Source: Magnetococcales bacterium DCbin4 (GTDB taxonomy: Bacteria > Pseudomonadota > Magnetococcia > Magnetococcales > UBA8363). From it: 64,000 bases of DNA. How positions within the stretch are numbered: position 1 is the stretch's first letter; each line of letters opens with the position of its first letter. Shown here in pieces: positions 56,015-59,199 of the stretch. Position numbers and translations under genes: made by a program. The stretch covers positions 6,625 to 70,624 of the forward strand of contig PEAN01000013.1 in assembly GCA_002753735.1 (NCBI GenBank), in the 5' to 3' direction. The notes beneath the pieces are model-generated. The model was not told where the DNA came from, made no database searches, and saw only the letters and a list, made by a program, of their open reading frames with translations.

Positions 56015-56722
56015 CTACAACGCATCCTGGCGGATGGAGGCATGCAGTCGTCCCCGTTCCATGGTGAGGATGTGATGGGCTTGTTGCGCAAAAAGTGTGC
56101 TGTGGGTGACCATGATCAAGGTTTGGCGCTGCTCCAGGACGAGTTGGGTCATCAGGTTGAGTACTGCGCTTGCCGTTTCCTGGTCAAGGTTGCCCGTCGG
56201 TTCATCGGCTAAAAGAAGACGTGGCCGATGGACCAGCGCCCGGGCGATGGCGACCCGTTGGCGTTCCCCGCCCGAAAGACGGTCGGGAAAGGTCGTCGCG
56301 CGATCCGCCAATCCCACCCGTTGGAGCAATTGCATGGCCCATTGTTGACCTGCTGCATCCGCCCGTGCCATCAATTGCAGCGGGAAAAGGACGTTTTCCA
56401 GGACATTCAATGTGGGGATCAGATTGAAAAATTGAAAGATGAAACCGATGTGGTGGCGGCGGAACAGCGTTCGCTGCCGATCATCCATTGCCGTCAGTTC
56501 GGTGGGACCGATGCGAATGGTTCCGCCATCGGGGAGATCCATGCCGCTGATGAGGTTCAACAGGGTGGTTTTTCCCGATCCCGACCGCCCGATGACCGCC
56601 GTGATCTCCCCTTGATTGAAGTTCGCTTCCAGATCCTGCAACACCGCGACGTTGCGTTCCCCCTCGCGATAGGATTTGTGGATGCCCTGCAAGGAAACCA
56701 GGGTGTGTTCATTCCATGGCAT
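56015..56722 (-). CDS. ABC transporter ATP-binding protein, LolD/MacB-like
   Basis: This is a 235-residue ATPase. Walker A is IGRSGSGKTTLLN (about residues 41-53), the signature is LSGGERQRVAIARAL, Walker B is LLLADEPTGNLD and the switch His is in MVTHST. The TGNLD ending of Walker B is typical of the MacB/LolD/FtsE group. With the following permease and lipocalin-like protein it forms a three-gene mechanotransmission-type ABC system. Confidence 0.92.
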   Translation of the reverse strand: MPWNEHTLVSLQGIHKSYREGERNVAVLQDLEANFNQGEITAVIGRSGSGKTTLLNLISGMDLPDGGTIRIGPTELTAMDDRQRTLFRRHHIGFIFQFFNLIPTLNVLENVLFPLQLMARADAAGQQWAMQLLQRVGLADRATTFPDRLSGGERQRVAIARALVHRPRLLLADEPTGNLDQETASAVLNLMTQLVLEQRQTLIMVTHSTLFAQQAHHILTMERGRLHASIRQDAL

Positions 56723-56917
56723 GGGAGAAACAACCCTCGGGTTGGGTGGTGGGATGACCGGAGATTCTACTTCAGATCCCGATGGGGTTCACTGGTATCG
56801 GATCATAAATAAGCAAAAAATCAAAGTAACTTTGTTTTGACCGGTTGCCTTCAAAGCCAGCGGCAGGCATGCTGTTGCCCTGGCCAAGGGATGGGTGGCT
56901 GCGAAAGGAGTGGGCAG

Positions 56918-58111
56918 ATGACGGATGCGGAATTGGAACTCTTTCTGGATGATCTGGAATCAGACCGGGTTGAACGCAAGGAGTCGGAAAAGGCGGGAGA
57001 CAAGATTTGTCAGGCGATTTGCGCCTTTGCCAACGATATGCCAGACCATCGGTTGCCTGGCGTGATCTTCGTGGGCGTCAAGGATCAGGGTTCTTTTGCC
57101 GGACTTGCCATCACCGATCAACTGTTACAAAACCTTTCCGCCATGCGTTCGGATGGCAATATTGTTCCACTCCCGGCCATGACGGTGCAAAAGCGAAACA
57201 TTAGAGGGACAGATCTGGCGGTGATCATTGTGCAACCGAGCGAGAGTCCGCCGGTCCGATTCAAGGGGACGGTTTGGATCCGTGTCGGACCGCGCAGGGC
57301 CATCGCCAACCTGGACGAAGAACGCCGATTATCGGAAAAACGACGTTATAAAGATTTGCCCGGGGATATCCATCCCATCCGCTCCGCTCCCATGGATGGA
57401 CTGGACGAATTTTTGTTTCTTCGCAGGTATCTCCCAACAGCCGTTTCTTCCCTGGTGTTGGCACAGAACCATCGTAGCCTTGAAGACCAATTGATTGCGA
57501 CCAAATTTGCCCATCCCGGTCCGCCAGTCTGCCCTACGGTCCTTGGTGAATTGACGATTGGAAAGGATCCCACCGATTGGATTCCCGGGGCGTTTGTTCA
57601 ATTCATCTGGATTGATGGTCATGAACTGGGTGACCCGGTGCAATCCTCGCAAGAATTGCGGTTGCCCATGCCTGAGTTGCTGCGGGAGATTGACCAATTG
57701 TTGAAAATCAATATCCATGTCGCGGTGGACATGACCACGGATTCCACGGAACGCCGACAACCCGATTATCCCCTGGTCGCTTTGCAACAAATGGTTCGCA
57801 ATGCCGTATTGCATCGATCCTACGATCAGGGCAATACCCCGGTGCGCATCTATTGGTTCAAGGATCGGGTGGAAATTTTCAATCCCGGAGGCCCCTATGG
57901 GCAGGTGACAAAAAAAAATTTTGGTCAACCCGGGGCCTATGGCGATTGTAATCCGAATCTGGCCACGGTACTCAAAGATCTTGGCTATGTTCAACAGTTT
58001 GGCATGGGGATCAGTCTCACCCGGAAAGCAATGGCGGGGAATGGTAATCCACCACCAGAATTTCTGGTTGAAGAAACCCATGTGGGCGTCATCTTGAGGA
58101 AACGTTCATGA
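56918..58111 (+). CDS. AlbA_2 (Schlafen-like) domain protein with HATPase-type C-terminal domain
   Basis: This is a 397-residue soluble protein. The N-terminal ~130 residues are an AlbA_2 domain: ERKESEKAGDKICQAICAFA, DHRLPGVIFVGVKDQG, VRFKGTVWIRVGPRRAIA. The C-terminal part has VALQQMVRNAVLHRSYDQGN, VRIYWFKDRVEIFNPGG and GMGISLTRKAM, the GHKL-like fold common in putative regulators with this architecture. AAAGGAG precedes the ATG. Its stop overlaps the start of the ParA-like gene by ATGA, so the two products very likely act together. Function unknown; transcription control or defence are both possible. Confidence 0.82.
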   Translation: MTDAELELFLDDLESDRVERKESEKAGDKICQAICAFANDMPDHRLPGVIFVGVKDQGSFAGLAITDQLLQNLSAMRSDGNIVPLPAMTVQKRNIRGTDLAVIIVQPSESPPVRFKGTVWIRVGPRRAIANLDEERRLSEKRRYKDLPGDIHPIRSAPMDGLDEFLFLRRYLPTAVSSLVLAQNHRSLEDQLIATKFAHPGPPVCPTVLGELTIGKDPTDWIPGAFVQFIWIDGHELGDPVQSSQELRLPMPELLREIDQLLKINIHVAVDMTTDSTERRQPDYPLVALQQMVRNAVLHRSYDQGNTPVRIYWFKDRVEIFNPGGPYGQVTKKNFGQPGAYGDCNPNLATVLKDLGYVQQFGMGISLTRKAMAGNGNPPPEFLVEETHVGVILRKRS

Positions 58112-59121
58112 GTGTTCCAGTCATCGCGTTTTTTAATAACAAAGGCGGCGTGGGCAAGACTTCCCTGGTGTACCACGTATCCTGGATGATGTCCGAGTTG
58201 GGTTTGTGTGTCGTGGCGGCCGATCTGGATCCGCAGAGCAACCTTTCCACAGCGTTTCTCGAAGAAGAACCTCTGGAATTGTTGTGGTCGGCAAATGGGC
58301 ATGATACGACGATTTTTGGGGCCATCAAGCCACTCAAGGAAGGCGAAAGCGATGTTGCCGAGCCAAAGCTCTTCAAAATAAATGATCGCTTGCACCTGTT
58401 GCCGGGAGACATGATGTTGTCCCGATTCGAGGATGACCTGTCGGAAACCTGGCCCAAATGTCTTGACGGTGATATACGGGCGTTTCGAATCACTTCCGCA
58501 TTTTGGCGACTATTACAAAATGGAGCGCGACAGTGTGCGGCGGATGTGGTGTTGGTGGATCTGGGACCCGATCTCGGGGCCATCAATCGGTCCGCCATGG
58601 TTGCCTCAGATGTTTTGGTCATCCCCCTGGGGCCGGATCTTTATTCGTTGCAGGGGTTGCACAACCTCGGGCCTGCTTTGCGTCTTTGGCGTAAGGATTG
58701 GAAAAAACGGTTGGATGAAATTCCCGATCCCAAGCTGGTCATGCCCCAGGGAACCATGAAGCCGATTGGTTATATTGTCATGCAGCATTCGGTGCGACTG
58801 GATCGTCCCGTCAAGGCGTATGACAAATGGGTCAATCGTATGCCGGGAGATTATCGGGAATTCGTTCTGAACGAATCCATCCCGGAAGGGGTGAAGGTTG
58901 CCAACGATCCCCATTGTTTCATGCTGCTGAAACATTACCGCAGTCTCATGCCCATGGCCCAGGAGGTACGTAAACCCATCTTTCACCTGAAACCGGCGGA
59001 TGGTGCCTTGGGTGCGCATACCTACGCGGTTCAAGAGGCTTACCGGGATTTTGAAAAACTTTCACGGGAAATCGCCAAACGGGCCGGGATTCCCATTGAA
59101 GGCGCGATTTCGACGGAATAA
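58108..59121 (+). CDS. ParA/Soj-family ATPase
   Basis: This 337-residue ATPase has the deviant Walker A FNNKGGVGKTSLV (about residues 9-21), the A' motif VAADLDPQSNLS and the Walker B region VVLVDLGPDLGAINR. It is about 70 residues longer than typical chromosomal ParA, with extra C-terminal helices (HTYAVQEAYRDFEKLSREIA). No parB or centromere-like repeat is visible nearby. The overlap with the AlbA_2 protein suggests a paired module that is neither a chromosome-partition locus nor a flagellar MinD/FlhG locus. Confidence 0.88.
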   Translation: MSVPVIAFFNNKGGVGKTSLVYHVSWMMSELGLCVVAADLDPQSNLSTAFLEEEPLELLWSANGHDTTIFGAIKPLKEGESDVAEPKLFKINDRLHLLPGDMMLSRFEDDLSETWPKCLDGDIRAFRITSAFWRLLQNGARQCAADVVLVDLGPDLGAINRSAMVASDVLVIPLGPDLYSLQGLHNLGPALRLWRKDWKKRLDEIPDPKLVMPQGTMKPIGYIVMQHSVRLDRPVKAYDKWVNRMPGDYREFVLNESIPEGVKVANDPHCFMLLKHYRSLMPMAQEVRKPIFHLKPADGALGAHTYAVQEAYRDFEKLSREIAKRAGIPIEGAISTE

Positions 59122-59147: not shown

Positions 59148-59199
59148 TTCAGCACCCCCTTTACATTGAAATTATTGAAAGGAAAAAGGGGGTGCTGAA
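59148..59199. terminator. Bidirectional terminator between parA-like gene and apaH
   Basis: TTCAGCACCCCCTTT (59148-59162) and AAAGGGGGTGCTGAA (59185-59199) are perfect 15-bp arms around a 22-nt loop that contains ATTATTGAAAGGAA, the edge motif of the local repeat family. It separates two convergent genes. Confidence 0.75.

Follow-up and report, generated by a model that had tools for sequence, protein, structure and literature searches.

Within a 64,000-nucleotide stretch of DNA from Magnetococcales bacterium DCbin4 (assembly GCA_002753735.1, contig PEAN01000013.1, positions 6,625 to 70,624 of the forward strand; hereafter the window), two overlapping genes encode protein A, which combines a Schlafen-type AlbA_2 domain with a C-terminal GHKL ATPase domain, and protein B, a ParA-type ATPase by sequence and predicted fold (Table 1). 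The A-B pair is real and widely recurrent, and its comparison across genomes makes it reasonably probable that it represents a mobile two-component conflict module in which the ParA-type ATPase would control a Schlafen-type RNase. We infer that A would be the toxic effector, with its nuclease domain controlled by its own GHKL ATPase domain, and that B would restrain A or sense a threat through its own ATP cycle. Disturbance of B by an invader, which is probably a phage or some other mobile element, would set A free, and the freed protein would halt translation, leading to growth arrest or abortive infection. Among the titles, abstract openings and passages of open-access papers covered, none names an AlbA_2-ParA pair, and a published description may exist.

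Recurrence and probable mobility of the A-B pair

A profile scan for B across 84,980 species genomes yielded 515 relatives, of which the best 80 were kept as named loci; loci found in this way favour an intact B. In 66 of these 80 loci the gene immediately upstream of B is A (55 full-length and 11 partial), and the exact 4-nt overlap is retained in 37 of the 55 loci with a full-length A. The 14 loci without A all carry a B protein with at most 41% identity to that of the window. The pair also recurs closer to the host. Among 61 own and related genomes, B matches occur in 19 (E 1e-15) and A matches in 26 (E 1e-10), and the strong matches coincide. Score and identity were used to pick out 23 loci or fragments of the A type in a sample of 398 genomes of the same phylum; B is adjacent in 21 of them, and the only two AlbA-type B genes without A both lie at contig ends. 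Other, longer AlbA_2/HATPase proteins in these genomes score below 175 bits and fall outside the 23. Distances between A proteins correlate with those between the adjoining B proteins (r 0.68 over 55 pairs, with 0 of 2,000 permutations as high). The pair is neither confined to this genome nor consistently placed next to a known system, two outcomes that would have spoken against the reading offered in an earlier note on the window.

The distribution of the pair is wide and patchy. Of 101 B proteins placed on a tree, 63 have A beside them, whole or broken, and these all sit in one 64-row branch (support 100/100) that covers 19 phyla; matches to the B profile at E 1e-40 are found in 34 of 398 genomes of the own phylum, 22 of 345 of Bacteroidota and 5 of 348 of Bacillota. 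Within the AlbA branch, Planctomycetota is sister to Myxococcota (100/100) and Thermodesulfobacteriota to Elusimicrobiota (100/98); such strongly supported sister relationships between distant phyla point to horizontal transfer. In the window the pair adjoins a convergent metallophosphatase gene, which we take to be apaH. The apaH region was read in nine relatives, to 1.5 kb or to the contig end, and A-B stands beside apaH in none of them, although five (G002, G005, G006, G008 and G011) carry the pair elsewhere, whole or broken, indicating that its place changes.

Predicted activities of the two proteins

In protein A, the SLFN_AlbA_2 domain (PF04326) is recognized with an E-value of 2.3e-15 (57.6 bits against a cut-off of 25.3) and the HATPase_c_4 domain with an E-value of 1.1e-15; no HEPN family is found among its Pfam matches up to an E-value of 1. 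The predicted model of A has a mean predicted local distance difference test (pLDDT) score of 89.2, and its best solved match is 3lmm (Z 22.5), with a root mean square deviation (r.m.s.d.) of 18.3 Å over 348 residues, which reflects a domain-by-domain similarity. The N-terminal part alone resembles 2kyy, a RecG-related bacterial domain (Z 10.1, r.m.s.d. 4.1 Å over 129 residues), the SAMD9 tRNase (Z 9.4, 3.8 Å over 137 residues) and SLFN11 (Z 8.9, 3.0 Å over 109 residues). Taken together, the Pfam assignment and the structural matches to SAMD9 and SLFN proteins place A, at the level of sequence and predicted model, in the Schlafen core fold (AlbA_2). Residues E14 and E19 of A are invariant in all 64 sequences compared and line up with the E-x4-E pair of SLFN11 in a weak profile match (E 0.72); cleavage by SLFN13 is described as depending on the E-x4-E residues (PMC5862951). 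In the ATPase part of A, N295, G324 and G328 are likewise invariant. A is predicted to cleave tRNA or rRNA through a Schlafen-type RNase activity.

No NCBIfam model matches A or B at its cut-off, and no system model of PADLOC-DB 2.0.0 matches either of them over most of both protein and model: A matches three models of the prokaryotic Argonaute (pAgo) type, each over part of its length only (best E 7.4e-10), and B matches PDC-M28B models only, over residues 3–53 or less. Closer parallels to A come from the literature. Bacterial Schlafen RNases, some of them near BREX genes, also combine an AlbA_2/Schlafen nuclease with a minimal histidine-kinase ATPase domain and have a link to defence (PMC12839542, which cites Taboada et al. 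2025, bioRxiv); in the passages available they bear a C-terminal winged helix-turn-helix domain and no ParA partner is named for them, whereas A ends in its ATPase domain.

The other close parallel is TrlG of the Photorhabdus temperature-restricting locus, which has AlbA_2 (residues 14–128) and HATPase_c_4 (residues 298–365) in the same order and at similar positions as A and is required for growth arrest at 36 °C (PMC7554251). This likeness raises the possibility that A stops growth in response to heat or some other stress and that B regulates it, with no role against invaders. TrlG, however, belongs to a three-gene operon with the phosphatase-like gene trlF and the small regulator gene trlR, and the genes described in the passages seen include no ParA ATPase (PMC7554251). 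A-B does not form part of a trlF/trlR-type operon and is flanked by a divergent gene for an ABC-transporter ATPase (ABC_tran) on one side and the convergent Metallophos gene on the other. Patchy occurrence, and the presence of SIR2, HEPN or RelA/SpoT enzymes beside related ATPases (see below), would moreover be unusual for a housekeeping regulator, and we regard a purely stress-responsive role as improbable.

Protein B is a ParA-type deviant Walker ATPase by family, predicted fold and conserved residues. Its residues 5–202 match AAA_31 (E 1.2e-25), and its predicted model (mean pLDDT 94.5) matches 3pg5 best (Z 28.8), followed by Soj/ParA structures (PDB entries 9a6n, 8jmj and 2bek; Z 26–28), with which B shares the KGGVGKT deviant Walker A motif. 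Among sequences with a letter at the position, K12 is kept in 81 of 81 and K17 in 78 of 81, and D39, D41 and D151 are kept in 82 of 82. B differs from the Soj/ParA partition ATPases in its length (337 amino acids against about 245–265 residues), in having no adjacent ParB and in being coupled to another gene. ParA-like folds are also known from NTP-dependent conflict systems, where MinD/ParA-like domains serve as effector or accessory parts and are predicted to be inactive (PMC7159879); B, by contrast, is a separate protein that keeps its ATPase residues. K17 is replaced in the B proteins of loci L058, L119 and L125, and a broken A adjoins two of these three (L058 and L119). At L058:8831-10381, in the close relative G006, A is broken and K17 of B is replaced by T, as though both genes were decaying. 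The solved structures that B and A match best, 3pg5 (DIP2308) and 3lmm (DIP2311), respectively, are both from Corynebacterium diphtheriae, with locus tags three apart, and both PDB entries are titled by locus tag only.

ParA ATPases are ordinarily read as partition proteins. With its ParA ATPase residues and Soj/ParA fold, B might position DNA or a protein cargo, and A could act as a DNA-binding adaptor that replaces ParB; a survey of pAgo systems classed AlbA_2 as a DNA-binding domain (PMC6299218). Against this, none of the 10 neighbouring proteins scanned is a ParB-like or plasmid protein, in line, for these neighbours out of the whole 64-kb window, with the earlier remark that parB and plasmid genes are lacking. 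There are also no direct repeats in the 261 bases at 56700–56960, although a lone parS site would escape such a repeat search. On plasmids, the best-ranked matches of B have 33% identity (40 of 4,067 records listed) and the 22 matches of A all have 34% or less, and none of the listed plasmid matches looks like the AlbA-type pair. The relatives of B, furthermore, pair with enzymes. A partition or positioning role is accordingly very improbable, and a partition system was dismissed as the leading reading on the lack of an adjacent ParB, of upstream direct repeats and of such a plasmid match. The same three observations tell against the second half of the earlier suggestion of a conflict or positioning module; its first half is favoured, by comparison only, through the spread over 19 phyla, the swapped enzymes, the changing place and a single case inside a BREX operon.

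Different enzymes beside one ATPase family

Control of an effector by the ATPase is argued most strongly by the relatives of B outside the AlbA branch, where differing classes of toxic enzyme stand beside one constant ATPase family. Directly downstream of these B genes lie genes for SIR2_2 (13 tree loci in one branch, support 98/85), HEPN_RiboL-PSP (5), RelA_SpoT (3 on the tree, plus L192) and PIN_12 (1) proteins. Three SIR2, two HEPN and two RelA/SpoT partners and the PIN protein were identified by Pfam scan, and the others by TBLASTN matches to these (E 1e-21 or better). The effector classes cluster by branch: partner labels change 8 times on the B tree, as against 36 in shuffles, and 15 of the 101 rows have no recognized partner. 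Since the B family is coupled in like manner to SIR2, HEPN, RelA/SpoT and PIN proteins, it appears that the ATPase stays constant and that the effector is swapped. At L147, which is not on the tree, a PDDEXK_13 gene lies 33 nt upstream of B.

Relatives of B are also found on viral contigs. Partners at the best 80 of 474 such loci, labelled by their similarity, in BLASTP and profile searches, to partners already identified, comprise RelA/SpoT at 19 loci, SIR2 at 17, HEPN at 9 and A at 2, with none at 28 and a contig edge at 5; crude removal of near-copies leaves 71 loci (15, 15, 9, 2, 25 and 5, respectively). Nine proteins (eight from viral contigs and one from L222) were scanned against Pfam, and the six presumed effectors among them fit their labels. 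No family is assigned to the remaining three, which are two upstream genes and that of L347, described below. The temperate phages ST160 and Pf1 carry B-like genes without an annotated enzyme directly adjoining.

Several loci of B relatives hold further genes. At the RelA/SpoT-type loci L187, L222 and L327, an extra gene of 183–207 amino acids without a Pfam family lies just upstream of B; those of L187 and L327 are alike by BLAST, and that of L222 is alike by eye. At the SIR2-type loci L339, L350 and L076, a similar gene of about 375 amino acids lies directly upstream of B, suggesting a three-gene form, and is annotated as a DNA methyltransferase in L076; L339 has no Escherichia coli match by megablast. 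On a viral contig, a 223-residue gene without a Pfam match directly follows the B-like gene (L347:6059-6730) and may represent a further partner type.

A wider, tentative proposal, which we hold to be possible but on balance doubtful, is that one ParA-type ATPase family serves as an effector-swapping platform for immunity and superinfection exclusion across bacteria and prophages. The same sensor ATPase, often with a start/stop overlap, would be coupled to an RNase of the Schlafen or HEPN kind, a SIR2 NADase, a RelA/SpoT alarmone synthetase or a PIN nuclease, and its ParA-like, DNA-dependent ATP cycle would detect the invader, for example through the replication or segregation of foreign DNA, and release the effector. 

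The A-B pair itself has the look of one form of a mobile system, for defence or growth arrest, in which effectors are swapped: a widespread ParA branch is coupled to a kind of protein used for stopping infected cells, and further enzymes of this sort are found on other branches. If this were true, many genes that now bear the label 'ParA family protein' or 'RecG-like helicase' would belong to modules of defence or growth arrest. An ATPase of the ParA type would be acting as a sensor, which would be unusual, and there would be a directly testable genetic regulator for bacterial Schlafen-type proteins.

A plainer explanation is that A and B are a toxin and its antitoxin, an addiction pair kept for its own spread and not for defence. 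Such a function was proposed by Anantharaman et al. in 2013 for a dyad of a HEPN protein (MAE_18760) and a ParA/Soj ATPase (PMC3710099). A-B resembles that dyad in coupling a ParA/Soj-like ATPase gene to the gene of a predicted toxic RNase, and differs from it in that the partner is an AlbA_2/HATPase_c_4 protein, is encoded upstream and has no HEPN domain. The HEPN partners of B relatives match Pfam HEPN_RiboL-PSP best. The pattern of broken genes bears on the same explanation. Among 22 own-phylum loci, A is broken beside an intact B in three, the reverse is seen in none and both are broken in three, and among 107 loci found through B the corresponding counts are 11 and 2, in a sample favouring intact B; in Bacteroidota alone (22 loci), by contrast, they are 0 and 1. 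This asymmetry fits an effector that is lost more readily than its regulator, but it is suggestive only, as most loci were found through B and errors in draft genomes may mimic breaks. A viral contig with an A-type protein but no B (L292) also speaks against an addiction pair, and the setting off plasmids and the differing effector classes fit defence at least equally well. We therefore judge a plain toxin–antitoxin function to be unlikely, if less so than the stress-regulator role considered above.

A direct contact with a defence system is found on the viral contig IMGVR_UViG_3300043424_000947 (L295:562-10354), where PADLOC places A-B between PglX and PglZ inside a BREX operon, preceded by the end of BrxC and followed by BrxL. 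Searches with these BREX proteins gave no second instance in a further 110 loci, which mostly contain A-B, so that the nested pair is a single case. The enrichment near defence genes that the earlier note proposed to look for was examined with the closest flanking genes of 50 loci, one on either side (94 proteins, taken by a simple longest open reading frame rule), and with 88 control proteins. The controls represent 44 of these 50 genomes, six control stretches having given none; they come mostly from contig starts and were not drawn at random. Neighbours of A-B match 64 PADLOC families with at most 5 members each, and controls match 49 families with 1 member each, so that the best family reaches 5 of 94 as against a maximum of 1 of 88; these counts are per family and not per distinct protein. 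By Pfam, ResIII (4 of 94), SNF2 (3) and NOV_C (3) occur beside A-B and not in the listed part of the controls. Helicase families are thus slightly commoner beside A-B, and there is no clear enrichment of defence genes.

A number of observations weigh against a conflict module. Besides this lack of clear enrichment, the nearest neighbours of A-B are mostly ordinary genes, and the plasmid matches listed contain no AlbA-type pair. The annotations of the nearest PHROG families, which A and B match over nearly their whole length, are not those of defence proteins (PHROG 12156, 'DNA helicase', and PHROG 164, 'ParA-like partition protein', respectively). For the predicted nuclease, the fold scores of Z 8.9–9.4 are moderate, and catalysis by A is uncertain because the third Schlafen acid (D248 of rSLFN13) aligns with the variable residue 55 of A, the adjoining D56 being kept in 62 of 64 sequences. 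On viral contigs, A accompanies only 2 of the best 80 B loci, and 28 of them have no recognized partner. The pairing, finally, is not absolute. A and B have the same nearest relative in only 18 of 55 pairs, and two own-phylum fragments of A lack B over the 1,787 and 3,282 bases read (G047, with 69% identity to the A of L068, and G031, with 41%, respectively). A scan of viral contigs with the A profile found three loci: L291 has B, L293 is truncated at the contig end, and L292:4998-6557 (IMGVR_UViG_3300002498_000087) has a near full-length A-type protein in a 519-residue frame that shares 50% identity with the A of L068. The remainder of the L292 contig holds no B.

Layout of the locus and the inverted repeat

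Table 1. Features of the A-B locus, in window positions
Feature	Position	Strand	Detail or basis
Gene A, AlbA_2 (Schlafen) + HATPase_c_4 protein	56918..58111	+	397 aa, ATG to TGA
Gene B, ParA-type ATPase	58108..59121	+	337 aa, ATG to TAA
ATGA stop/start overlap of A and B	58108..58111	+	sequence reading
AAAGGAG, likely ribosome-binding site of gene A	56904..56910	+	sequence reading; inference
SLFN_AlbA_2 domain of A, residues 14-126	56957..57295	+	Pfam, fold matches
HATPase_c_4 domain of A, residues 307-393	57836..58096	+	Pfam
NA..HR.Y conserved stretch of A, including invariant N295	57800, just ahead of HATPase_c_4	+	alignment
Deviant Walker A KGGVGKT of B	58141..58161	+	alignment
Perfect 15-bp inverted repeat, between convergent genes	59148..59199	no strand	arm belongs to a dispersed genomic repeat

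The ATGA overlap of A and B described earlier is borne out by direct reading of the sequence. Beyond the convergent Metallophos gene lie genes for CYTH and guanylate-kinase-like proteins.

The inverted repeat 3′ of gene B has two perfect arms of 15 bp (59148–59162 and 59185–59199) separated by a 22-nt loop, and folds far better than shuffled sequences (−27 kcal/mol, z −5.4). It had been described as a bidirectional terminator bounding the two-gene unit; the perfect repeat and its strong fold are real, but neither arm is directly followed by a T-run and the arm is not specific to the unit. A terminator scan did not list the repeat, although that scan takes only loops of 3–8 nt, so that a 22-nt loop is undetectable by it. 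In the host genome the arm is matched exactly at 9 sites, which include the two arms of this repeat, and with one mismatch at another 8, as compared with 2 in total for a reversed control pattern. The 15 other matches (7 exact and 8 with one mismatch), several of which are close to contig ends, have adjoining bases that resemble the flanks of the window copy and that align with each other in an alignment made without that copy. The inverted repeat is therefore a short copy of a dispersed genomic repeat module, like those of the miniature inverted-repeat transposable element (MITE) or repetitive extragenic palindromic (REP) families, and may still have a role in terminating transcription.

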